NCBI RefSeq assembly: GCF_007752345.1
Contig: NZ_CP036299.1
Span: forward strand, 4,188,001-4,252,000
DNA length: 64,000 nucleotides
Direction: 5' to 3'
Source: Planctopirus ephydatiae
Lineage (GTDB): Bacteria > Planctomycetota > Planctomycetia > Planctomycetales > Planctomycetaceae
This document shows, one piece after another, positions 7,725 to 30,243 of the stretch. Numbering within the stretch: the first letter of the stretch is position 1; every line of letters starts with the position of its first letter. The notes under the pieces were generated by a model. The model saw nothing but the letters and a program-made list of their open reading frames with translations. It did not search any database and had not been told where the DNA came from. The position numbers and the translations under genes were made by a program.

Positions 7725-9299
7725 TTATTCGGCGTCCACTGTCACTTGCCGACCATCTGCCAGCGTGAGTTTGAGCTTGCCGGCCGCCGCAGTTACCAAA
7801 GTTGTGAATTCTGCCGGAGTACCAACGGGTTGCCCATTGACCTCCGTAATGAAGTCCCCGACATGGAGCCCTGCCCGACTACCGGCACTCTCTGCCACGA
7901 TTTCCGTCACCAGCACGCCCGGGAGAAAGCGAATGGGCTGTGGCAGAAGTTTCCATCGCCCCGTCGAGTAATCGACTGTTAATCCCCTCAAAGCAGCTCG
8001 CCTGGCCCCCGAGGCCACAATCTGATCTTCCCAGTCGACGGGCCACTTCCCAAGTCGCACGGAAAGCTGCAATTCCTGCTGGCCACGCAACACCTTGAAA
8101 GGAACGACTGTTCCCGGTGCTTTCAGACCCACTTCCCGCATCAGGTCATCCCCTTGAAGGATACGCACCCCTCCAATTTCCAGCACGATATCCCCGGGCT
8201 CAATCCGACCGTTCCATGCCGGCGAATAAGGGTAAGCCATCTCCACCTGAGTACCGTACAACACACGCGGGTACCCTTCGATCGCTCGGGGTATGACCAC
8301 TGGGGCTCGATTGAGGCTCACACCCAGAAATCCGTACTCCACTTCCTCGCCGCGAATAAGCGACTCCACAATCCGGCGGACTCCGGTATCGAACGGCACA
8401 ACAAAGCCACTCGATTTCTCATAACCATCCAAGGCGGCCAGCGAACTTCCAATACCCACGAGTTCCCCATTGAGGTTGATGGCGGCTGCCCCACTCATCC
8501 CCAAAGAAAGTCGTGCGTCGACCTGCCAAAGGGTGCCAAAATAATGAATGGTGGGCTTCGCTTTGCGAGAATCATCCCGAGCCACCAGCGGATCTGGAGG
8601 CGGACGACGGGTCATGTTGGAAATCATGCCCATCGTGACACTGGCTGAACCATCGCGTGCAATCGCATACGGATTCCCCAACAGCAGCACAAACTGCCCT
8701 TTGGTCATCTCATCCGCTCGGCCTAATTCCAACGGTGTGAGATTTAAATCACCTGATCTCAAAGCACCGCTATCAAGTGCAAGGACTGCCAGGTCACTTC
8801 GAGGATCGGCTGCGAAAACGGTCGCCCAGCAACCCTTACGCCCCGTAAATGTGACGAACAACCGCGATTGATCCCCTTTCACAGGCTGCCCATACCGCTG
8901 TCCATTTCGAACAGCGTGATAACAGGTGAGCACCACAGGTTCCTGAGGATTCGCCCCGCGAATCAGAATCCCGCTCGCAAACTCATTGGGAACAAAATCA
9001 GGGTCGAGCGGATCCAGCCGGGTTACCCGCTGATCCGGGCCAATGATCATTTCCGTCGCTGATGGACGCACCCGGGCAATGCTGACAATCGCCCCTTGAT
9101 TCCGCTCAACCAGATTTTGAACCGTCTTTTCAAATGCGACCACAGGGAGAGCTGGAGCCTGTGCCAGAAGTGTCGTCGAGCAGCAAGCACCAAACGCGAG
9201 AACCACGACCAGCAATCCGCGCAACGATCCTCTCGCTGTGGAAACAGCTTTGAAGACTGGCGGCGTGGACTCGCATGACCACATCACAACATTTCCCAC
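7725..9299 (-). CDS. Exported trypsin-like serine protease with PDZ domains (HtrA-like)
   Basis: A 524-residue protein. A hydrophobic segment near residues 26-46 (GLLVVVLAFGACCSTTLLAQ) is a signal peptide or anchor. The protease domain (about 55-300) shows a plausible triad: His128 in VVLTCYHAV, Asp169 in DPRSDLAVLAL and Ser269 in SLGMSGAAAINLNG. Two PDZ regions follow (about 325-410 and 425-520, with GLHVGDFITEVNGQPVG in the second). The nucleophile loop GMSGAA replaces the usual GNSGGP, so activity is likely but not certain. It would act in protein quality control outside the cytoplasm. The start is a GTG with GGAGTTCT before it; an in-frame ATG at 9284 is the alternative. Confidence 0.85.
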   Translation of the reverse strand: MGNVVMWSCESTPPVFKAVSTARGSLRGLLVVVLAFGACCSTTLLAQAPALPVVAFEKTVQNLVERNQGAIVSIARVRPSATEMIIGPDQRVTRLDPLDPDFVPNEFASGILIRGANPQEPVVLTCYHAVRNGQRYGQPVKGDQSRLFVTFTGRKGCWATVFAADPRSDLAVLALDSGALRSGDLNLTPLELGRADEMTKGQFVLLLGNPYAIARDGSASVTMGMISNMTRRPPPDPLVARDDSRKAKPTIHYFGTLWQVDARLSLGMSGAAAINLNGELVGIGSSLAALDGYEKSSGFVVPFDTGVRRIVESLIRGEEVEYGFLGVSLNRAPVVIPRAIEGYPRVLYGTQVEMAYPYSPAWNGRIEPGDIVLEIGGVRILQGDDLMREVGLKAPGTVVPFKVLRGQQELQLSVRLGKWPVDWEDQIVASGARRAALRGLTVDYSTGRWKLLPQPIRFLPGVLVTEIVAESAGSRAGLHVGDFITEVNGQPVGTPAEFTTLVTAAAGKLKLTLADGRQVTVDAE

Positions 9300-9361
9300 A
9301 GAACTCCAGCCCTAACCAACACCCTGGATCCCAGTCACTTCCAACTGATTCTCACTCGGAA

Positions 9362-10420
9362 TCACTCTCCCTTGGAAGAGGTGGAAATGTGCTGACCAGC
9401 GGCATGCAGTTCCAGCACCTTGGCCTTGATCTCGGCCATCAACTCCGGATGCTCTTCCAGATAGATCCGGGCTTTATCCCGGCCCTGACCGAGCTTGACT
9501 TCGCCATACGTAAACCAGCTACCACTTCGATCAATGAGCCGTGCAGCCACCCCCAGATCGAGAAGATCACCAGAAAAGCTGATTCCCTGTGAACTCAACA
9601 TGTCAAACTCAGCCACACGGAATGGGGGTGCGACTTTGTTTTTAACAATCTTGACCTTCATGCGCATCCCGGTCGTGACATCCCCCTCTTTCAAGGTTGC
9701 CAACCTCCGGACATCAGCACGGACGGAGCAATAGAACTTGAGAGCCCGCCCGCCAGGAGTTGTTTCCGGGCTGCCGAACATCACGCCGATCTTTTCCCGG
9801 ATCTGATTGATGAAGATCACTACGGTTTTGGCTTTGGAGATCACCCCGGTCAGCTTACGCATGGCCTGGCTCATCATGCGGGCCTGGAGCCCAACATGTG
9901 AGTCGCCAATCTCGCCCTCCAGTTCTGCTTTGGGAACCAGTGCCGCCACCGAGTCGACGACCACGACGTCAACCGCGTTCGATTTGATCAGCATCTCGGC
10001 AATCTGCAGAGCTTCTTCTCCTGTCGAGGGCTGACTGACCAGCAACTCTTCCAGATTGACTCCCAGCTTTTTCGCCCAGGCAGGATCCAGTGCATGTTCA
10101 GCATCGATAAAGGCCGCAATCCCTCCCTCACGCTGTGAATTCGCAATGCAATGCAGGGCCAGCGTGGTTTTACCGCTTGATTCGGGCCCGAAGATCTCAA
10201 CGATCCGGCCCCGTGGAAAGCCTTTACCACCCAGTGCCAGATCCAGCGACAACGCCCCGGAACCAATCCCATCGACATCCATGCCGGCATCGGTCAGCTT
10301 CATGATCGAGCCGCGACCAAAGGCCTTTTCGATCTGCCCCAGTGTGTTATCGAGCAACTTCACATGCTCGCGTTCAACTTCTGCAGCAGATTTCTTGTCT
10401 GGCTTGGCCTTCGGCGACAT
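9362..10420 (-). CDS. recA: RecA recombinase
   Basis: A 352-residue RecA, the ATP-dependent strand-exchange protein that also activates LexA-type self-cleavage. Walker A is GPESSGKTT, Walker B is in [16 protein letters not shown], and loop regions include [20 protein letters not shown] and [16 protein letters not shown]. The length is typical. AAGGA lies upstream of the ATG. The upstream region (10421-10551) holds a candidate SOS-type operator, described separately. The serine protease gene follows 62 bases downstream on the same strand and could be co-transcribed. Confidence 0.98.
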
Positions 10421-10488
10421 CCTGAGTCATCCTTTTTGAAATCTTTTTCGGTCAATCACAAACCGTACAAAGACACGTTCATTGCGTG

Positions 10489-10502
10489 TGTACAAAAATA
10501 CA
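10489..10502 (-). promoter_or_regulatory. Candidate SOS (LexA-type) operator upstream of recA
   Basis: On the coding strand the sequence reads TGTATTTTTGTACA, i.e. TGT-N8-ACA, resembling the core of the enterobacterial CTGT-N8-ACAG box. It lies about 70 bases before the recA start. An adjacent inverted repeat ACACG-N7-CGTGT (about 10474-10490) overlaps this stretch. The LexA motif of this lineage is not known to me, so this is a weak candidate. Confidence 0.3.
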
Positions 10503-10551
10503 AGAAACCAAATGAACAGTCAACACCCTGCATGAAATGGATTTGATTTCA

Positions 10552-11298
10552 TCACTTCGAAAGCTCTGCCAACACTTCTTCCGACACGCTGAAATTCGAC
10601 ATCACATTCTGAATGTCATCGTTGTCTTCGAGAGCATCTATCAAAGCCAGGACGGCTCGCCCCATCTCCAAATCCAGCTCGACCGTGTTCTGCGGTAACA
10701 TGGTGATTTCTGCAGATTCCGTCAGAATACCGGCCTTCTCCAGAGCTTCTCCCACAGGAGTAAATGTCTCTGGGGGACAAATCACTGAAAAACCACCAGC
10801 ATCGGTGGTGACATCCAACGCTCCAGCATCGAGCGCAATCTCCATGAGCGTGTCTTCATCGGTTACGCCTGCCTTCACCGCATAGAGCCCTCGGCGATCA
10901 AACATCCAGGCCACACAACCTGTGCTGCCAAGATTCCCACCATGGATATCAAAAATCCGGCGGACTTCACCTGCTGTGCGATTCCGGTTCTCTGTCAGAA
11001 TATCACAGAGGACAGCCACACCACCGGGGCCATAACCTTCATAGAGCACCTGCTCGTAATTGTCGGCCTGAAGCTCGCCTGTCCCTTTTTTGATCGCGCG
11101 CTCAATCGTATCGGCAGGCATGCTCGACTTCTTGGCGCGATCAATTGCGTAGCGCAGTGCAAGATTCGCAGCAGGATCTCCCCCCCGCTGTGCAGCCACA
11201 ATAATGGCCTTGGAAAGCTTGCCAAAGAGCTTCCCTCGCTTTTGATCGTATCGTCCCTTCTTGTGAGCGATATTCGCCCAATGGGAATGGCCAGCCAT
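10552..11298 (-). CDS. YebC/PmpR-family protein
   Basis: A 248-residue protein of the YebC/TACO1 family, with the conserved start MAGHSHWANIAHKKGRYDQK and the typical TENRNRTAGEVRRIF and GGNLGSTGCVAWMF blocks. The length matches the family (about 240-250). Members have been described as DNA-binding regulators and, more recently, as factors that relieve ribosome stalling; the sequence alone does not choose between these roles. The gene lies upstream of recA on the same strand with 131 bases between them, so it may or may not share transcription. Confidence 0.93.
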   Translation of the reverse strand: MAGHSHWANIAHKKGRYDQKRGKLFGKLSKAIIVAAQRGGDPAANLALRYAIDRAKKSSMPADTIERAIKKGTGELQADNYEQVLYEGYGPGGVAVLCDILTENRNRTAGEVRRIFDIHGGNLGSTGCVAWMFDRRGLYAVKAGVTDEDTLMEIALDAGALDVTTDAGGFSVICPPETFTPVGEALEKAGILTESAEITMLPQNTVELDLEMGRAVLALIDALEDNDDIQNVMSNFSVSEEVLAELSK

Positions 11299-11457
11299 AC
11301 TGTCTATCTCTTCTCAACTAGCAGATTCAGTTCAACAACTTACGACAAGGCGTGAGATTTCATCTCTTGAGCAGGCAGTGAACCTCGCAGAATGACCAGT
11401 TTCTGACTCGCGCACAAGGGCTTGATGACGGGGAGCCAGCTGACCATCGACAGAACA

Positions 11458-13887
11458 TCAGGACGTGGGCTCGACACCTTGAGGCTTACCCCCCGCTGGC
11501 TTGGCCTCTTCTTTGGGTTTGGCAGCCGTCCCTAACTTTTCTTCCAGTCGCTTGAGTAATTTCTCATCAGGGAGACGTTCAGCTCTCGACTTTTCCATCG
11601 CTTTTGCCCAGGCTTTCTGAGCGTCGGCGGCTCGACCCAGTTTGTCGTAAACATCTCCCAGATGTTCATAGATTGTGCCATCTCCACCCGTCCGCATTTC
11701 AGCGGCTTTTTCCAGTGGCGAAAGTGCCTCTTCATACTTTCCAAGCTTAAACAGCACCCAGCCCAGGCTGTCGAGATAAGCCGCATTTTCAGGTTCTGCT
11801 GCCACCGCCTTGCGGATCATTTTCTCGGCTTTCTCCAGGTTTTTTCCCTGGTCGGCATAGAGGTAGCCCAGATCATTATTGACCGAAATATCCTCTGGAT
11901 CTTCCTCCAGCACTTTTTCAAGGATCGCTTCCCCTCGAGGGATATCTCCCTGCATCACATAGATATTCGACAGGCTGAACTGGCACTGCCTTACAATCCG
12001 TGTCTCGCCGGGAAAATCCCGGAGCACAGTTTCAAACTGGGCAATCGCCTTTTCGAAATTGCGACTGTGATAGTAAATCCAGCCTTTCTGGAACTGCAGG
12101 ACAGCCGCCTGGGGAATCAGACGAATCGCCTGATCAATCGCTTCCAGTGCTCCTTCAGTATTCCCGTTCATCTCCCGGGCTTGAGACAACTGGAAGAGCA
12201 GGTTGGGCTTTCGATCAGCCATGGCGGGCTCTTCCAGGGCTTCTTCCAGAACTTGAGCAGCATCGGCATAGCGGTCGGCTTTCAGAAGCATTTCCGCCAG
12301 ATCGGAAAGCACAATCCCCCCACGATCGGGAGCAATCTCCTTGGCTTTGCGAAAGAATTCGATTGCAGCATCGATTTGCTCACCTTGAGAGGCCAGCTTG
12401 GCAACCAGGTAGGCCTCTTCAAAAGTCAATTCACGAGGCTCGGCCGTAGCCTGCCGACGGCCTGCATCAATCACCAGACCAACCAGTTCCCGATCCTTAG
12501 CCACCGACTCGAACTCGGCTTCAATCTCATCCACACCATCCGGTGGAGCCTGAGACAAGCCGCGACCTAACGTATCGAGCAGCTTATCTGCCACTTTCTG
12601 CTTGCGATACAAACGCGAAAGCCCCAGATATCCCTTTAAATCTCGCGAACCCTTCAACGAGGCTTCGTAGATTTTTTCGGCTTTTTCGTAATCACCACGA
12701 TCCGTCAGCTTCTCAGCCAGAAAGAACTGCAGTGTCGAATTCCGCTGGTCTTTTTCGGCAATCGCAGTCAAGCGATCAATCAACTCTCCCTCAAGACCAC
12801 TGCGGGAGAGAATCTGCGACAACAATTCGTAAGCTTCGCGGCCTTTGGATTGTCTTTGGGCATCGATGTATTTCTGAAGTTCCACCAGAGCCTCCGCCGG
12901 CTTACCTTCGAGAAGCAGCAGTTTGGCCTGATAGAAATTGACATTTCCCCTGCTGGCCTTCCCGGTTTTGACAGCCAATTCCAGGGCTTCTCGTGCAGGG
13001 GCCACCCGTTCCGCATCCAGGAGAACCTGTGCAACACGCTCAGCGCCCGTCCTGGGGTCATTCATCAGTTCGTTGCGGAATCTGGGATCGAGTTTGAACT
13101 CATCCGGCTTCTTAAACACTTTCAGCAGCAGTTCGTACTTATCGGCTGCCTTGGGAATATCACCCGTCGCCAGATACAGAATCGCCAGGTCTCGCTGCAG
13201 TCGGATCGCCCAGTTCGACAGGGGATCGAGTGTGGGAGAATTTGCTGCCTGTTCCAGAAACTTGATCGCCTCGGCCCCTTTCTGCTGGGCAGCCATTCCT
13301 GCGGCAAGAGTATGGAGAACTTCAAAGTCGGCAGGATCGAGATCGACAACTTTCATGGCCCAGGACATCGCCTGTGCAGGTTGTTCCTGAATCAGTGCAA
13401 TCTGCATCAGTTTGCGATACGTCTCGGCAGAGCCTGGGTTAAGTTCCGCAGCCCGCTGGTAAGCGGTATAGGCCCGCTTCCACTCCAGTCGAGATTCGAA
13501 CAATGAGCCCGACATGAACCACGCCAATGCCTCTGCCTGTTTTTCTTCGGCAGCAGTGCGCGGAGTTTTAGGATCGAGTGGAACAGCCGGTTCATCCAAC
13601 GTTTGCAATTGAATGACAGGCCCTGCGGGTACCTTGGGAGATCCAGCAGGCTGAGTTTCCTCAGAAGCTGCTGTTTTCTTTGTTGCCACTTCAGAGACCG
13701 GAGGCGGTGTGACAACCTCTTGAGCTGCCGCAGGCTTCAAGAAGGAATCGGCCAGTCCGTTCCCAGACACCACAGATATGGCTACAAAACAGGGAATCAT
13801 CAGGCCGAACTTGAAGAGTCGGAAACCTCCATCCCGTCGCAGACGAAATGCGGTCAGTCCCAGACTCCATTTACTGACGTGTTCCAT
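11458..13887 (-). CDS. Exported TPR-repeat protein
   Basis: An 809-residue protein made almost entirely of tetratricopeptide repeats. Clear units include AYQRAAELNPGSAETYRKLM, AIDQAIRLIPQAAVLQFQKG and ALSPLEKAAEMRTGGDGTIY. The N-terminus has a basic stretch (RLRRDGGFRLFK) followed by a hydrophobic segment (FGLMIPCFVAISVVSGNGLA), giving a signal peptide or anchor. A Pro/Thr-rich linker and a charged Lys/Pro-rich tail frame the repeats. It probably serves as a scaffold in the periplasm or on a membrane; no enzymatic motif is visible. The start at 13887 is chosen because GAGGGGCAGGG precedes it, unlike the Met 30 bases upstream. Confidence 0.85.
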   Translation of the reverse strand: MEHVSKWSLGLTAFRLRRDGGFRLFKFGLMIPCFVAISVVSGNGLADSFLKPAAAQEVVTPPPVSEVATKKTAASEETQPAGSPKVPAGPVIQLQTLDEPAVPLDPKTPRTAAEEKQAEALAWFMSGSLFESRLEWKRAYTAYQRAAELNPGSAETYRKLMQIALIQEQPAQAMSWAMKVVDLDPADFEVLHTLAAGMAAQQKGAEAIKFLEQAANSPTLDPLSNWAIRLQRDLAILYLATGDIPKAADKYELLLKVFKKPDEFKLDPRFRNELMNDPRTGAERVAQVLLDAERVAPAREALELAVKTGKASRGNVNFYQAKLLLLEGKPAEALVELQKYIDAQRQSKGREAYELLSQILSRSGLEGELIDRLTAIAEKDQRNSTLQFFLAEKLTDRGDYEKAEKIYEASLKGSRDLKGYLGLSRLYRKQKVADKLLDTLGRGLSQAPPDGVDEIEAEFESVAKDRELVGLVIDAGRRQATAEPRELTFEEAYLVAKLASQGEQIDAAIEFFRKAKEIAPDRGGIVLSDLAEMLLKADRYADAAQVLEEALEEPAMADRKPNLLFQLSQAREMNGNTEGALEAIDQAIRLIPQAAVLQFQKGWIYYHSRNFEKAIAQFETVLRDFPGETRIVRQCQFSLSNIYVMQGDIPRGEAILEKVLEEDPEDISVNNDLGYLYADQGKNLEKAEKMIRKAVAAEPENAAYLDSLGWVLFKLGKYEEALSPLEKAAEMRTGGDGTIYEHLGDVYDKLGRAADAQKAWAKAMEKSRAERLPDEKLLKRLEEKLGTAAKPKEEAKPAGGKPQGVEPTS

Positions 13888-15611: not shown

Positions 15612-16421
15612 TTATACCGATTTTGATTCACCAGAGACATCTGTATCACCCGCCGCACCATCAGAAACTCGACCCAAGTCTTCACTGGTCACCACTGGAT
15701 CTACGGCACTCGATGAGGATGCCTCCTCGTTCAATTCGCCAGCTTCTTCCGCTTCATCGGCCTCAAATTCTTCATCATAAAGATCGTCATCCAGAGAATC
15801 TTCCCCCTCCTCTTCGGCTTCATCGGTGTCAGCTTCATCGGTGTCAACTTCATCGCTGTCAGCCTCATCGCTGTCAGCCTCATCGCTGTCAGCCTCATCG
15901 CTGTCAGCCTCATCGCTGTCAGCCTCATCGCTGTCAGCCTCATCGCTGTCAGCCTCATCGCTGTCAGCCTCATCGCTGTCAGCCTCATCGCTGTCAGCCT
16001 CATCGCTGTCAGCCTCATCGCTGTCAGCCTCATCGCTGTCAGCCTCATCGCTGTCAGCCTCATCGCTGTCAGCCTCATCAGTGGGAAGAACCTCTCGCAA
16101 GGCTATTGACGTTTCAATACTCCGCTTGACCCCCTGATCGAGCACAAATGTCAGCACCGGGGTATAGCGCGTCTCCAGTCGGTCTGCGATCTTGGCCTGA
16201 AAGAAGCCGCAGGCTGATTGCAAACCGTGCATGCACAAAGACTGCTCTTTGGGAGTCCCCATCACCGAAACATGAACTCGTGCGGTTCGCATATCCGGAG
16301 CCACCTCTGCCGAAAGAACAGTGACGTTCTTGACGCGTGGATCACGGATATGCCGCATGATCGTCAGGCTGACTGTTTCCAGCACAGCCTGAGAAGCCTT
16401 TGCAAGTCGTCGAGACATCAT
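15612..16421 (-). CDS. rbfA: Ribosome-binding factor A with long acidic repeat tail
   Basis: A 269-residue protein. The first 115 residues are RbfA, a KH-like 16S rRNA maturation factor of the 30S subunit, with SLTIMRHIRDPRVKNVTVLS and the downstream LDQGVKRSIETSIALREVLP. The remainder is a very acidic tail of DEADS pentapeptides, then DEVDTDEADTDE and an Asp/Glu-rich end. Typical RbfA is about 110-140 residues, so the tail more than doubles it. The tail is encoded by tandem DNA repeats described separately. It follows infB with an 82-base gap, the usual nusA-infB-rbfA order. Two tandem ATG codons exist at 16421 and 16418. Confidence 0.9.
   Translation of the reverse strand: MMSRRLAKASQAVLETVSLTIMRHIRDPRVKNVTVLSAEVAPDMRTARVHVSVMGTPKEQSLCMHGLQSACGFFQAKIADRLETRYTPVLTFVLDQGVKRSIETSIALREVLPTDEADSDEADSDEADSDEADSDEADSDEADSDEADSDEADSDEADSDEADSDEADSDEADSDEADSDEADSDEADSDEVDTDEADTDEAEEEGEDSLDDDLYDEEFEADEAEEAGELNEEASSSSAVDPVVTSEDLGRVSDGAAGDTDVSGESKSV
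15825..16079 (-). repeat. Tandem 15-bp repeat array inside rbfA
   Basis: Fifteen identical units of GCTGTCAGCCTCATC on the plus strand fill 15855-16079, preceded by two diverged units (15825-15839 and 15840-15854). On the coding strand each unit encodes Asp-Glu-Ala-Asp-Ser. Complete identity at the DNA level, including synonymous positions, suggests recent or ongoing copy-number change by slippage or unequal recombination. Because the unit is a multiple of three, copy changes keep the frame. There are no spacers, so this is not a CRISPR array. Confidence 0.97.
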
Positions 16422-19829: not shown

Positions 19830-21164
19830 TTACGATTTATTGCCGGCCGCCTCCTCGACAGATGCTTCACTGGTCGATTCCGCAGCGGGTGGCACTTTGC
19901 TTTCTACAGGGGGACTCGAGGCGCGTGCCTCTTCCGCCCGACGCTGCTCCCGCTCTTGAGATTGCCGCTCGGCCTTCTCGGTCGCACGACGAAGATCCTG
20001 CTCCTTTTCAATCCGCTCGCTTTCGCGTTCGGCGTATTCGACAATCACGTCGGCCTGCTCTTGAGTTAATGAGCCCATCTCCATCAGCTCGTCGGGCTCG
20101 ATAACAGACAGGTCTTCAAAACTCAGAAATCCTTGCGATACCAGCCCTTCCGCCAGTTCCTCGGAAACTCCCGGGATCTGCGAATAGGCCACGACCGCCT
20201 GGTCAAGCTGCTGATCCAGCTCTTCACGAGTCATCACGTCGATATCCCAGCCCACCAGCTTAGAAGCCAGACGCACATTCTGGCCCCGTTTGCCAATCGC
20301 CAGAGAAAGCTGATCATCCCGCACAAGTACCAGCACCCGGCCCAGCATCGGGCAAAGAATGACATCTTCCACTTCCGAGGGCTGCATCGCATTCGGGACG
20401 AGCACCTGGAGGGAATCATTCCAGCGAACAACTTCAATTCGCTCTCCACCCAGCTCTTCGCCCACATTGCGAATACGGGCACCACGCACACCCACGCAGG
20501 CACCGACCGGGTCGATATTGCTGTCGGCACAGGAGACAGCCACTTTTGTTCGGTACCCAGCTTCCCGAGCCAATGACCGGATCTCGATAATCCTCTCGTT
20601 GACTTCAGGAATTTCCAGTTCAAGCAGGCGGCGGACAAAATCGGGATGAGCTCGAGACAGCACCACTCGAACGCGAGGGCCCATCTTTTTTACTTCCAGC
20701 ACCACGGCACGAATTCGCTCATTCGGACGATGCGATTCACCCGGGATCATTTCACTGCGAGGTAGAATCGCTTCCGCCTTGCCAATGTTGACCGTAATGG
20801 CACTTCCCTCATTGCGAGTCACTGTCCCGGAGACAATCTGCCCTCGCAACTGGGCATATTCATCAAACAACGTATCACGTTCAGCTTCACGAATCTTCTG
20901 AATCATGACCTGCTTGGCAGTCTGAGCCGAGATGCGGCCAAGAATGTCACCCAGTTCATCGCGGTCAATTTCGCGACCATTGGTTTTCACCATCGGCTGA
21001 CCGCTGGTGCGATCAATATGAACCTCGATGACTTCTTCTTCACCAAAGTGCTTCCGCGCAGCCGAAAGAATGGCCTGCTCCACCCCTTCGAAGACAATCT
21101 CCTTGTCGATGCTCTTATCGCGATGGATCGAATCCACGATCCGCAGCACTTCATTGCCGTTCAT
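19830..21164 (-). CDS. nusA: Transcription termination/antitermination factor NusA
   Basis: A 444-residue NusA, which binds RNA polymerase and RNA during pausing, termination and antitermination. In order: N-terminal RNAP-binding domain (ending near [18 protein letters not shown]), S1 domain ([20 protein letters not shown]), two KH domains ([20 protein letters not shown] and [20 protein letters not shown]), then a helix-hairpin-helix-like segment and a charged Arg/Glu-rich tail. It heads a nusA-infB-rbfA block; rimP, often upstream of nusA, is not seen here. The nusA-infB gap of about 220 bases leaves room for a separate promoter. Confidence 0.96.
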
Positions 21165-24132: not shown

Positions 24133-25440
24133 CTATTCCACTTCGATAATCACCGCTGCTGCCTGACCTTTGCGAGTCACGTTCATTGATACAAAAGTCT
24201 TCAGCGCAGGACTCACGCCAGGGTCTGTCACAATCGAAACATCGCAGGCAGGATCTGGAGTCTCGTAGTTCAAAGTACGCGGGATAAATCCTGCTTTCAC
24301 ACCAGCTAACGAGGTCATCAATTCCACCAGTCCTGAGCCTGCCGAAGAGTTGCCGACATAACTCTTGGGAGCGGTGACAGGCACACGGTAGCTGCCAAAA
24401 ACTTCGTTAATCGCGCGGGCTTCCGCAGCATCAGCTTCGGGCAGACCAGCGGCATGAGCGTTGTAATGACCAATGTCTGTCGGTTCCATTTCTGCACTTC
24501 TCAAGGCGGCCTTGAGAGCCCCCTTCACCGCATCCTGATAGCGAGGTTGTCCATCAGGATTCACGCATGTGGCAGCACCCGTCGACAGGACTCGCCCGTA
24601 GATCGTGGCGCCGCGCGCTTCCGCATGTGCTCTGGTTTCCAGAATCAATGTTCCGGCCCCTTCCCCAACCACAAAACCACTCCGATCCTTTTCAAATGGT
24701 CGCGATCTTCTGGCTGGTTCAGCCGGTGAGGAGGCTAACAATGTTTTGACCAGTGCCAGGTGCAGAGTACGCACTGGATGTGAATACGAACCTGTGGCAC
24801 CTGTGATCATGATATCTGCAGCACCACGCTGAAGAATGCGGACGGCCTCACCGATCACCACATTTCCCGACGCTTCATCGAGAGTCAGCGAGTTACTTGG
24901 GCCGCGAGCATCGGAAGCAATACTGATATGACAGGCTGGCATGTTCGGCAGATAGCGGAGCAGCCATAATGGCTCCATTTTGCTGTAGCCCGCTTCTCCC
25001 CAGCCTTTGAAACTCGCATCACCAGTGATTTCACTCATCGCGACGGCAGGGCCACCCAGCACAGCCGGTTCGCTGAGCATCAGGTTCGCACCGAACTCCA
25101 CACCCATCCGCGTATGATCGATAGATTCCATATTGAGCTTGGAATCTTCCAGAGCCATCAGAGCACTGGCCACGCCAAGCTGAATATCCCGGCACATCAG
25201 CTTGATGCTTCGCCGGACTTCTTTCAGATAGATTTTTTTTGCAGTTTCTTCGTTGAAATCACCGATCTCAGCGGTCACTGCATCGGGGCTGGCGAATCCC
25301 GGGAAGAACTTCGACTTCGATATTCCGGTGGCCCCGGCACGCAAATTTTCTGTTAATGCCGACAGACCAATTCCGACGGGACTGACAATTCCCACGCCAG
25401 TAATGACAATATCTTGTGCGCTCTTGCTCTTTAAGGACAT
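24133..25440 (-). CDS. Ketosynthase-like protein lacking catalytic Cys (chain-length-factor-like)
   Basis: A 435-residue member of the FabF/KAS II family. The fold is clear (IVITGVGIVSPVGIG at the start, RPFEKDRSGFVVGEGAGTLI in the middle). Where FabF has the nucleophilic Cys (GPxxxxxTACASGN), this protein reads GPSNSLTLDEASGN, placing Glu189 at the Cys position. His329 in YNAHAAG is kept, but the second His (KSxxGHLLGA) is replaced by Asn364 in PKSYVGNSSAGS. It therefore probably cannot condense acyl chains, and resembles KS-beta/chain-length factor subunits of type II polyketide synthases, which pair with an active KS. The normal FabF is two genes upstream. The ATG at 25440 is chosen over an upstream TTG. 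Confidence 0.85.
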   Translation of the reverse strand: MSLKSKSAQDIVITGVGIVSPVGIGLSALTENLRAGATGISKSKFFPGFASPDAVTAEIGDFNEETAKKIYLKEVRRSIKLMCRDIQLGVASALMALEDSKLNMESIDHTRMGVEFGANLMLSEPAVLGGPAVAMSEITGDASFKGWGEAGYSKMEPLWLLRYLPNMPACHISIASDARGPSNSLTLDEASGNVVIGEAVRILQRGAADIMITGATGSYSHPVRTLHLALVKTLLASSPAEPARRSRPFEKDRSGFVVGEGAGTLILETRAHAEARGATIYGRVLSTGAATCVNPDGQPRYQDAVKGALKAALRSAEMEPTDIGHYNAHAAGLPEADAAEARAINEVFGSYRVPVTAPKSYVGNSSAGSGLVELMTSLAGVKAGFIPRTLNYETPDPACDVSIVTDPGVSPALKTFVSMNVTRKGQAAAVIIEVE

Positions 25441-25647
25441 GGCGTGCGTCTTATCTCCAACTGTCAATGCCTGGGCCAAGAGCTGCTACTAAACTCAAAT
25501 CACCAGACGAATATCAAACGCCAGATATGTGAAAACTCAACAGTTCTCGCCTGCTTGTTCGCGTTACAAGCCAGAAAAGAGAGTCGATTCTCATTGATTT
25601 TGCAACCCTATCCGGCGCAGCGGGCTGTCTCCACTGATTCTAAGGGA

Positions 25648-26199
25648 TTATCGCCACAAATTATAGCGCTGCATGGCCTGAATCACTCGATCGGAGACAC
25701 CCCGGTTCCGCAGTTCGATAATTCCTGCCGGTGAAAGTTGAAAATGGCCCCTTCGATCGGCCAGCGTACTGATGATCAAGTCATCAGTGATACCGGCATG
25801 AATCATATGCAGTACATCATGTTCCGTCATGGCACGGCCATGCACATGCACAAATGCTGCCTCCTGTGCCGATGCTTCCAGACTGACGGCCCGGCTGACA
25901 GTCACATCGTCCGCATGACCAACTGAAGCACCCAATGCGGTACCAATCACAGTACCGGCCACAAGTCCGGTTTTAGGGTTACCAGTGGCGGCACCGACTA
26001 ATGTCCCGGCGACTGCGCCAAATGTGCCCCCAGCGAGTGCACCATGACGAGTTCCATTCATGTGCGTGCAACCGGACTGAGAGATCGCCGCAGCACATAA
26101 CAAGAAGCAGCATAACCACTTGCAACACGCATTCCGCGATTCACTCCGCGAGTCGTTGCAGCAACTGGCCAAAGCCCCAGTCTTTACTGGAAAGTTCAT
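25648..26199 (-). CDS. Glycine-zipper lipoprotein
   Basis: A 183-residue protein with a signal peptide ending in a lipobox (LCAAAISQSGC), so it is probably an outer-membrane or periplasmic lipoprotein. A glycine-zipper stretch (GALAGGTFGAVAGTLVGAAT, then GLVAGTVIGTALGASVG) suggests membrane association or oligomerisation. The C-terminal part (VHGRAMTEHDVLHMIHAGIT ... GVSDRVIQAMQR) has a short repeated helical motif seen in other planctomycete lipoproteins, function unknown. It sits between fabF and the ketosynthase-like gene on the same strand. The ATG at 26199 is preferred over an upstream TTG. Confidence 0.75.
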   Translation of the reverse strand: MNFPVKTGALASCCNDSRSESRNACCKWLCCFLLCAAAISQSGCTHMNGTRHGALAGGTFGAVAGTLVGAATGNPKTGLVAGTVIGTALGASVGHADDVTVSRAVSLEASAQEAAFVHVHGRAMTEHDVLHMIHAGITDDLIISTLADRRGHFQLSPAGIIELRNRGVSDRVIQAMQRYNLWR

Positions 26200-26334
26200 C
26201 CCTGAACCTTTCGTGCTCCCCTGCAAGGCATGACAAATCGATCGCTTTATCGAGTACGAATTACGACTGTACGATCGCTGTCAGCACAGCTCTCTCGAGT
26301 TCGAGTGGCAATCGATAAAGCAAGCCCGCAGGTA

Positions 26335-27573
<1,239 letters not shown>

Positions 27574-27576
27574 CCG

Positions 27577-27816
27577 TCATTGCTTTTCTGAAATGTACTT
27601 AACTGCATCACCAACTGTTTTGATTTTTTCGTAATCTTCGTCAGGAATCTGAATACCAAATTCGTCTTCAAATTCCATAACGAGCTCTACGACGTCCAAA
27701 GAGTCGGCCTTCAGGTCGTCGATAAACGAACTCTCCAGCTTCACGTCTTCCTTGGCGATGCTGAGTTGCTCGCTGACAATTGCGATGACTTTATCTTCTA
27801 CCGACGACGACGACAC
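27577..27816 (-). CDS. acpP: Acyl carrier protein
   Basis: A 79-residue ACP, the carrier of growing acyl chains in the cytoplasm. The 4'-phosphopantetheine attachment site is Ser39 in [20 protein letters not shown]. It is acidic and of standard length. It starts with GTG, preceded by GAGGAGAT seven bases upstream. It is followed almost immediately by fabF. Confidence 0.97.
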
Positions 27817-28030: not shown

Positions 28031-28945
28031 TCAGGATACACTATCGTTCACAGTTTCGCAGTTCGCTTTGCGATCAATTCGCTTCAACAGACCCTTCAAA
28101 ACTTTGCCTGGGCCAATTTCATAAAATGTTTCAACACCTTCCGCCAGTAACTCTCTGACTGAGGACTCCCACTGCACAGGTTCAGTGACCTGCTTGATCA
28201 ACAAAGATTTCAGTTCTTCCGGCTCAAAATGGGCTGTTGCATCCACATTCGAGATCACGGGAAGTCGCGGCGATTTCAAATTCACGGCCCCAATCGCCTG
28301 AGCCAAGTCTTCACAGGCCGAGGCCATCAGTGGTGTATGGAACGCACCGGCAACAGCCAGTGGAATCGGCCGGCCTCCAGCCGCTTCAATTCTCTCTGCC
28401 GCCTTGGCACAAGCCGCTTTTTCCCCCGAAAGAACGGTATTGCCCGGACACAGATAATTAGCAATCCAGATCTTCCCGGCGTCCTGAGATTCAACCACGA
28501 CCTGCTCGACCTGGGCTGGCTCCAGAAGTAGCGCACTGACCATTCCCGAAGGTGTCGCATCGGCTGCCGCCTGCATCGCGCGACCACGCACAGCGACAAC
28601 TTTCAAGCCTTCTTCAAATGTCATGGCTCCAGCGAAAACCAGAGCGGTATATTCACCCAGACTCAGGCCGGCACTGGCCACACACGATTCCACTAAGGCG
28701 GGTTGCTCAATTTTCAGCGATTCCAATGCCGCCAGACTTGCGACAAACAGCGCCGGCTGGCTGATCACCGTACTATCGAGTTGTTCTTGTGGCCCTTTCT
28801 CGCAGATCTCCAGGAGATCGAAGCCAAGTACTTCTCGGGCCTGGTCAAACAAAGCTCGCGCAGCGGGATACTTCGCACTCAGGCCGACACCCATCCCCAG
28901 ATGTTGAGCCCCCTGTCCTGGAAAAAGAAACGCGACCTTAGCCAA
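28031..28945 (-). CDS. fabD: Malonyl-CoA:ACP transacylase
   Basis: A 304-residue FabD, which loads malonyl groups onto ACP. It opens AKVAFLFPGQGAQHLGMG. The nucleophile is Ser95 in SAGLSLGEYTAL; the usual GHSxGE motif reads GLSLGE, with Leu instead of His. The catalytic His is present in AVAGAFHTPLMASA. The start codon is TTG. It lies between plsX (275 bases upstream) and acpP (214 bases downstream). fabG, usually between fabD and acpP, is missing here. Confidence 0.94.
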   Translation of the reverse strand: MAKVAFLFPGQGAQHLGMGVGLSAKYPAARALFDQAREVLGFDLLEICEKGPQEQLDSTVISQPALFVASLAALESLKIEQPALVESCVASAGLSLGEYTALVFAGAMTFEEGLKVVAVRGRAMQAAADATPSGMVSALLLEPAQVEQVVVESQDAGKIWIANYLCPGNTVLSGEKAACAKAAERIEAAGGRPIPLAVAGAFHTPLMASACEDLAQAIGAVNLKSPRLPVISNVDATAHFEPEELKSLLIKQVTEPVQWESSVRELLAEGVETFYEIGPGKVLKGLLKRIDRKANCETVNDSVS

Positions 28946-29220: not shown

Positions 29221-30243
29221 TCAGGCAGAACCGACCAGTTGGAGATCGACTTCCAGTTCGCTGCAAATCTGGCTGTTGATGCCGCGATTCTGCAACTCAT
29301 CGGCCAGCTTGAGGGCATTAAAGATCGAATGCCCATTGCTGGAACCATGGCAGATGATGCAATTGCCATCCACACCCAACAGCGGTGCACCACCCGATTC
29401 GTGATAAACGTATTTGCGCTCGAGAGCTTTCAGAGCTTCAATGGCCTTGTTTCGCTCGACATCCAGAGCCGAAACCACGGCTTTCCCCACTGTCTTGAAG
29501 AGCATATCCACAATGCCTTCACTCGACTTGAGGATCACATTGCCCACAAAACCTTCGCAAATGACGACGTCAGTGCGACCTTCGTACAGATCGCGCCCTT
29601 CGACATTCCCGACGTAATTGTAGCTCTGAATGGCCTTGCTTTTCGCATACAGTTCCTGGGCTTCACGCACCAGATCATTCCCTTTGCCATCTTCGCTGCC
29701 GATGTTCATCAGCCCGATGGAAGGTTTTTCCACACCCAGCAGATTGCGAGCGTAAACAGCACCCATCACACCGTATTGAAGAAGGTGCTCGGGACGGGCT
29801 GCAGGATTGGCCCCCACATCCATCAGCACACATCGACCTCGCATCGTGGGCAAAACCACGGCAATTCCAGGTCGCCGCACATTTCTCAAAAACAGCCGAG
29901 TTCGCAACCCGGCGGCAACCACTGCTCCCGTATGCCCGGCACTGACCACGGCATCAACAGCTTTCGACGCCATCAATTGCCAGCAGACTGCGAGAGAGCA
30001 ATTGGGCTTCTTTCTCAGTGCATCGGTCGGCTTTTCGTCCATGCCGACATAGCCATCAGCCGCCTGAACTGTCAGACGGCGACCAAACTCAGGATGCGAT
30101 GCGATCTCTTGACTCAACAGGGGTGCGTCCCCAACCAGCACAATTTCAATGCCGGGAAGAGCCTCAACAGCTTTAACCGCCCCTTCGAGGTTGGGCCCGG
30201 GAAACACGTCCCCGCCCATCGCGTCCAATGCGACTCTCGCCAC
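29221..30243 (-). CDS. plsX: Phosphate acyltransferase PlsX
   Basis: A 340-residue PlsX, which converts acyl-ACP to acyl-phosphate at the membrane as the first step of phospholipid synthesis. Family signatures are the start ARVALDAMGGDVFPG, the GHTGAVVAAGLR block and the C-terminal ESGGAPLLGVDGNCIICHGS. The start is GTG with AAGGAT eight bases upstream. It follows rpmF by 62 bases, the standard rpmF-plsX pair. Confidence 0.96.
   Translation of the reverse strand: MARVALDAMGGDVFPGPNLEGAVKAVEALPGIEIVLVGDAPLLSQEIASHPEFGRRLTVQAADGYVGMDEKPTDALRKKPNCSLAVCWQLMASKAVDAVVSAGHTGAVVAAGLRTRLFLRNVRRPGIAVVLPTMRGRCVLMDVGANPAARPEHLLQYGVMGAVYARNLLGVEKPSIGLMNIGSEDGKGNDLVREAQELYAKSKAIQSYNYVGNVEGRDLYEGRTDVVICEGFVGNVILKSSEGIVDMLFKTVGKAVVSALDVERNKAIEALKALERKYVYHESGGAPLLGVDGNCIICHGSSNGHSIFNALKLADELQNRGINSQICSELEVDLQLVGSA

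Follow-up and report, generated by a model that had tools for sequence, protein, structure and literature searches.

A FabF-linked ketosynthase homologue of Planctopirus ephydatiae, predicted to be catalytically dead, as a candidate chain-length-factor-like subunit of fatty-acid synthesis

Gene Organization of the fabF Locus

The window, which is the whole stretch of 64,000 nucleotides of Planctopirus ephydatiae analyzed here, carried a block composed of infB, nusA, B, fabF, acpP, fabD, and plsX, where B denotes a ketosynthase (KS)-like gene. The features of this region were as follows:

19830-21164, minus strand: nusA, downstream end of what looks like the ancestral fabF-B-nusA-infB locus (open reading frame; synteny)
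24133-25440, minus strand: pseudo-ketosynthase B (open reading frame and translation, family score, model with the FabF fold)
25648-26226, minus strand: glycine-zipper lipoprotein-like gene, located between B and fabF (glycine-zipper families matched weakly)
26335-27573, minus strand: fabF (KAS II) with canonical Cys-His-His (TIGR03150 616.5 bits, above the cut-off; catalytic residues)
27577-27816, minus strand: acpP, acyl carrier protein (open reading frame with a DSLD motif; beside fabF in many loci)
28031-28945, minus strand: fabD (open reading frame; conserved synteny)
29221-30243, minus strand: plsX (open reading frame; conserved synteny)

The first-pass annotation had placed a KS-like gene at 24133-25440 next to a normal fabF and acpP. 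The coordinates were right, the strand was minus, and the neighbors were as described, with acpP at 27577-27816 and a canonical FabF that possessed Cys164, His304, Lys336, His341, and the GFGG motif. The B gene was an intact open reading frame of 435 amino acids, with the ATG start at 25440 and the stop codon at 24133-24135, and a TTG at 25479 was a possible alternative start that would add 13 amino acids to give 448. Elsewhere in the window, an rbfA-like ribosome-binding factor gene (15612-16421, minus strand) contained about 17 near-perfect 15-bp repeats at 15820-16079 (98% match), which encoded a long acidic DEADS tract at the C-terminus.

Among the 71 named loci with enough flanking sequence, B immediately followed fabF in the same orientation in 30 and lay apart from it in 40. 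Four MAGs with the annotation Pirellulaceae, Rhodopirellula or Planctomycetaceae (L159, L162, L165, and L167) had a gap of 6-21 bp between fabF and B and the gene order fabD-fabG-acpP-fabF-B-nusA-infB as far as the contigs reached; nusA was found in the same order in these loci and at L187. Moreover, in the family f5, B was located at most 3.5 kb from fabF and near nusA and infB. The linkage of fabF and B in multiple families and MAGs, as well as in the window, indicated that the connection with fatty-acid synthesis (FAS) is old and conserved and not an accident of one genome. In its ancestral form, the B locus was apparently plsX-fabD-(fabG)-acpP-fabF-B-nusA-infB. The glycine-zipper lipoprotein-like gene was not general to the locus, as only a few related loci had it. 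In addition, B was often a solo gene, and no recurrent neighbor other than the FAS block was found where B was away from fabF.

Sequence and Fold of B

The positions of B that correspond to key residues of E. coli FabF were assigned as follows:

24874-24876, minus strand: Glu189 codon (GAA), at the site of Cys163 (sequence and alignment census)
24454-24456, minus strand: His329 codon, equivalent of the catalytic His303, kept in the window protein (sequence)
24349-24351, minus strand: Asn364 codon, at the site of the second catalytic His, His340 (alignment)
24964-24966, minus strand: Trp159 codon, at the position of Phe133 in the dimer-interface helix (alignment)

The exchanges of the nucleophilic Cys for Glu189 and of the second His for Asn364 had been noticed earlier, and the numbering was confirmed at codons 24876-24874 and 24351-24349. 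It had also been stated that the rest of the fold was intact. This was borne out for the fold itself: the AlphaFold2 model of B showed a full KS fold (pLDDT 89.6, pTM 0.88), and the structure comparison matched it to the FabF from T. thermophilus (1j3n, Z 57.1) and the actinorhodin KS (1tqy_A, Z 55.8), and also to 6kxf. However, the statement did not extend to the active site, where the gating loop GFGG with Phe400 was replaced by TRKGQ in the alignment. In FabF, the oxyanion hole is partly supplied by this Phe400 (PMC7138838). The window protein retained His329 and Lys359. Both Pfam ketosynthase domains were present in B, and its TIGR03150 (FabF) score was 249.7 bits against a cut-off of 493.75. 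The nearest solved sequences in the PDB were FabF enzymes, not chain length factors (CLFs), with about 30% identity. Furthermore, the dN/dS of B relative to P. limnophila was 0.036.

Conservation across the B Family

A match to B was found in 59 of 59 relatives searched. The residue census was performed on an alignment of 103 B, 15 C (a paralogous pseudo-KS), 41 FabF, and 11 active KS (type D) sequences. At the Cys163 position, the 103 B proteins had Glu (85), Asp (17) or Gly (1), and neither Cys nor Gln occurred; at the His340 position they had Asn (88) or Ser (15). The first-pass annotation had proposed an alignment to see whether Glu189 and Asn364 are conserved and had regarded relatives with Cys and His as evidence against its reading. 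The acidic residue was conserved in 102/103 and Asn/Ser in 103/103, and no B protein possessed Cys or His340. Phe at the gate position 400 was absent among the residues listed for the 103 B proteins, the motif being T-R-x-G-Q. Within the same alignment, Cys-His-His-Phe was kept in 41/41 FabF and 11/11 D sequences. The losses of Cys and His are thus family-wide with one qualification: the first catalytic His is kept in the window protein and has been lost repeatedly across the family. His303 was retained in 75 of the 103 B sequences and switched its status about ten times on the tree of B and C.

Position 133, on the other hand, never switched on this tree and was Trp in 103/103 B and 15/15 C, while planctomycete FabF had Met or Thr. 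The dimer-interface helix and strand formed the most conserved part of B, with a mean majority frequency of 0.87 vs. 0.63 overall. The active-site loops were degenerate in B (0.58-0.74), compared with 0.90-0.99 in FabF. A conserved interface together with degenerate active-site loops marks a protein that is retained for its interface and not for its chemistry. At the sequence level, B cannot carry out condensation because the nucleophile, the second His, and the gate are all lost. Judged from its sequence, B is an intact KS fold that is catalytically dead and strongly conserved.

The loss of all catalytic motifs might be expected of a decaying or dispensable FabF duplicate. Such an origin of the pattern is scarcely credible, since B was intact in essentially all related genomes, had residues that were invariant class-wide, and is probably essential (see below). 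The intact reading frame, the dN/dS of 0.036, and the conservation in 103 orthologues likewise indicated that the change of the Cys was due to neither chance nor decay. Decay was rejected on this dN/dS, the conservation in the 103 B, and the matches in the relatives.

A KS-like protein of this kind might also have gained another activity. B could be a homodimeric enzyme of changed chemistry, with the acidic residue as a general base or as an acyl or ACP ligand site, or an acyl-ACP sensor or regulator. The conserved acidic residue, the retention of Lys335 in 102/103 sequences, the invariant Asp and Glu of the HGT loop, and the frequent occurrence of B as a solo gene would suit such a role. However, the active-site loops were among the parts most degenerated relative to FabF, His303 was dispensable, and the FAS block was the sole recurrent neighbor, so that this explanation is considered unlikely.

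The first-pass annotation had offered a decarboxylating, KSQ-like subunit as its alternative. Cys-less KS domains with Gln are established decarboxylases of malonyl groups, and B would accordingly convert malonyl-ACP to acetyl-ACP and prime fatty-acid synthesis. The His329 and Lys359 of the window protein would fit this activity, and the Asn at the second His site recalls the His-Asn pair of FabH. However, the Cys site of B was Glu or Asp and not Gln, His340 was never kept, His303 had been lost about ten times, and Phe400 of the gate was gone. In addition, FabH scored above the cut-off in 18/18 genomes tested, which leaves no primer gap for B to fill. Priming by decarboxylation was rejected on these residues and on the presence of FabH, and it is regarded as very improbable.

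Relationship with the Paralogue C and the Active KS D

In the maximum-likelihood tree, the B clade had an SH-aLRT support of 99, and B and C formed a single pseudo-KS clade with a support of 100. Trp133, Leu138, and Asn140 were the core interface residues common to both. By profile score, B occurred in Planctomycetaceae and in certain further families of this class, and it was not seen in genomes whose best pseudo-KS scored only as C. The tree and the synteny showed that B arose from a duplication inside an older planctomycete pseudo-KS lineage. Two records titled Candidatus Kuenenia stuttgartiensis (L111 and L146) contained Planctomycetaceae-type B and are apparently MAGs under a wrong name.

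The C-type proteins of other families in the class adjoined an active D-type KS, within clusters that carried two FabZ-like dehydratases, FabG, and ACP and were type II polyketide-like. Adjacent pairs of a C-type protein and an active KS occurred outside the class too. In Planctopirus ephydatiae, D (G000:C1:4859755-4861026) was accompanied by FabZ, FabG, ACP, and FabZ, and C was located elsewhere (L068). D was of two types: D1, present in every B-bearing genome tested, and D2, next to the C-type proteins of other lineages. Overall, D was found in 19/19 further genomes tested.

The D cluster of Planctopirus ephydatiae (locus L086, G000:C1:4851000-4870000, at 8738-12964) comprised D, two FabZ-like dehydratases, FabG, and a 128-aa ACP with no enoyl reductase, and it was type II polyketide-like or polyene-like. 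Its D probably belongs to the group of five essential KS described below for P. limnophila, and the cluster may make an essential, undescribed lipid. In L071 1-15000, L076, L083, and similar loci of other planctomycete families, the KS/pseudo-KS pair was followed by an alpha/beta hydrolase-like protein and by a conserved protein that, by eye, resembled a GH3-type adenylating ligase in sequence. A further region, G000:C1:4794407-4810733 (L001, L007, L010, L011, L014, L016, and L017), was a large cluster that encoded an extra FabH and a 2286-aa multidomain protein along with several stand-alone KS; a set matching these stand-alone KS was absent from P. limnophila.

Putative Function of B and Its Partner

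The first-pass annotation had compared B with the KS-beta subunit or chain-length factor. Of the readings considered, this analogy had the best support, from the dead, conserved, and FAS-linked nature of the KS and from its invariant bulky interface residue; the heterodimer with FabF that it implies is putative. The probability that B serves an active KS, with FabF as the likeliest, as a non-catalytic, chain-length-factor-like subunit was estimated at about 0.5. In FabF-type dimers, the interface helix with positions 133-138 borders the acyl pocket of the partner. B would join an active elongating KS in a mixed dimer, with the neighboring FabF as the likeliest candidate, and the interface helix of B with the invariant Trp133 would line the acyl pocket of this partner. 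It would thereby set the chain lengths that are made or passed on, for example those of acyl chains in the membrane or in lipid A. The pockets of FabB and FabF differ at residues 138-140 (PMC4606726), and chain length factors act by shaping the tunnel of the partner (PMC12664062).

FabF was considered the likeliest partner on account of the synteny. A fused FabF-B protein was modeled with AlphaFold2 from the in-frame read-through at locus L114, with the stops as Ser and nine paired rows; the model had a pLDDT of 73.5 and a pTM of 0.50, with low confidence in both halves. In the mirror-tree analysis, the distances of B and FabF co-varied beyond the NusA control (partial r 0.39, uncorrected Mantel p 0.02), which lends weak support because the presumed C-D pair, at -0.02, gave no signal. 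No interface changes were found in FabF between B-bearing and B-less genomes, the hydrophobic homodimer helix being normal in both. Hence, FabF homodimers must persist in B-bearing genomes and compete with any FabF-B dimer.

B might be the chain-length-factor-like subunit of D instead of FabF. D lacked a hydrophobic pocket helix of its own, with Glu108, Glu134, and Glu138 in 19/19 sequences, as expected of an obligate heterodimer KS, and it was present in all 19 further genomes. Moreover, the interface helix of B resembled the helix of C-type proteins, which are syntenic with a D-type KS and not with FabF, and in one MAG (L129) B was found about 1.6 kb downstream of D. However, the ancestral position of B was in the fabF operon and not in the D cluster, and the B-D distances showed no co-variation (0.01). 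In the interface helices of 19 Planctomycetaceae, the acidic D faced a C bearing His or Arg, and the apolar B faced the apolar FabF; the solo C of these genomes (His/Arg108, Gln137) suits the acidic D better than B does. Outside those Planctomycetaceae, an apolar C adjoined an acidic D, so that the helix charges did not discriminate between FabF and D. On balance, D is a serious competitor but rather unlikely as the partner, and FabF is preferred.

Probable Essentiality in P. limnophila

In P. limnophila DSM 3776 (G001; ESSENTIALITY), ten KS-domain matches were obtained, and exactly five of them were stand-alone proteins, namely FabF, B, C, D, and one more KS, whose triad was intact. The remaining matches were located in proteins of more than 2,000 aa. 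The B gene of this strain lies at CP001744 3,333,189-3,334,532. According to a published TraDIS transposon screen of P. limnophila, a group of five such KS paralogues was all essential (PMC10632474). The agreement of this number with the five stand-alone KS, which include B, makes it very probable that B is essential and required for growth. Since no gene of its strand block follows B, a polar effect is unlikely.

The fifth stand-alone KS (G000:C1:329720-330481, L012; G001 L288 7706-9025) was divergent, with Cys-His-His intact. It scored about 165 bits to FabF, adjoined a MOSC-like gene, and probably belongs to the same all-essential group of P. limnophila.

Significance

In bacterial fatty-acid synthesis, the known elongating KS are homodimeric, and heterodimers of a KS with a CLF are known from secondary metabolism. 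This division would change if a bacterial class indeed has an essential dead KS within its core FAS locus. Such a KS would be a natural example of a pseudoenzyme that controls chain length in primary metabolism, with the CLF architecture recruited into it. We propose, tentatively and at somewhat less than even odds, that elongation by the housekeeping FAS of Planctomycetia relies on a heterodimer of FabF and B, the latter being an essential dead KS with Glu that controls the chain length, and that a parallel C-D pair serves a second pathway. Since the sister pseudo-KS is paired with an active KS in polyketide-like clusters elsewhere in the phylum, a simple route to the origin of the type II PKS heterodimers would also be provided. 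Furthermore, it would bear on the unusual lipids of planctomycetes, such as the long-chain 3-hydroxy acids of the P. limnophila lipopolysaccharide, which has 3-OH 14:0 and 3-OH 20:0 (PMC3035269). P. limnophila is genetically tractable, and the question of B is therefore directly testable in this species.

Comparison with Known Systems

The first-pass annotation had known of no described role in this setting. This holds for the function; however, two FabF paralogues of R. baltica with Cys163 changed to Asp and Glu were reported in 2009 (Rattray 2009, PMC2649909), and the literature search found no described role for B beyond them. The divergent FabF paralogues of that study were RB3714 and RB4527 of R. 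baltica and kuste3606/2805/3348 of K. stuttgartiensis. The R. baltica pair probably belongs to the B/C pseudo-KS clade; it was presented in the context of ladderanes, without linkage to the fabF operon, a family-wide census or essentiality. A 2023 catalogue of type II KS-CLF pairs covers Planctomycetes (PMC10132072). In our search, no paper was found on the FabF-linked B family, the invariant Trp or the probable essentiality; the class-wide conservation, the FAS linkage, and the probable essentiality of B appear to be new.

Like the KSQ loading domains and the FabF C163Q variant, B has its nucleophilic Cys replaced. However, KSQ domains keep both His and possess Gln, and B has neither feature. 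B shares its fold and overall sequence family with FabF (KAS II), but it differs in the absence of the Cys, the second His, and the Phe gate, and it falls below the TIGR03150 cut-off. ApeC, the CLF of the aryl polyene synthases (ApeO-ApeC), is likewise a KS-like partner without catalytic activity, in a type II system that resembles FAS. It is about half the size, with a single thiolase domain (PMC8358021), and unlike such half CLFs of about 200 residues, B has 435 aa and both Pfam KS domains.

The KS-beta subunits or CLFs of type II PKS, such as those of the actinorhodin (1tqy) and ishigamide (6kxd-6kxf) KS-CLF, typically have Gln at the nucleophile site, while B has Glu or Asp in 102/103 sequences and Gln in none. 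The gating motif T-R-x-G-Q and the closest solved sequences, which are FabF, also distinguish B from them, as does its place beside fabD, acpP, and fabF in an operon of housekeeping fatty-acid synthesis. Like these subunits, B is a full-length KS fold without the Cys, and its gene adjoins those of an active KS and an ACP (after fabF in 30/71 loci), but the KS is the housekeeping FabF and not a PKS enzyme.
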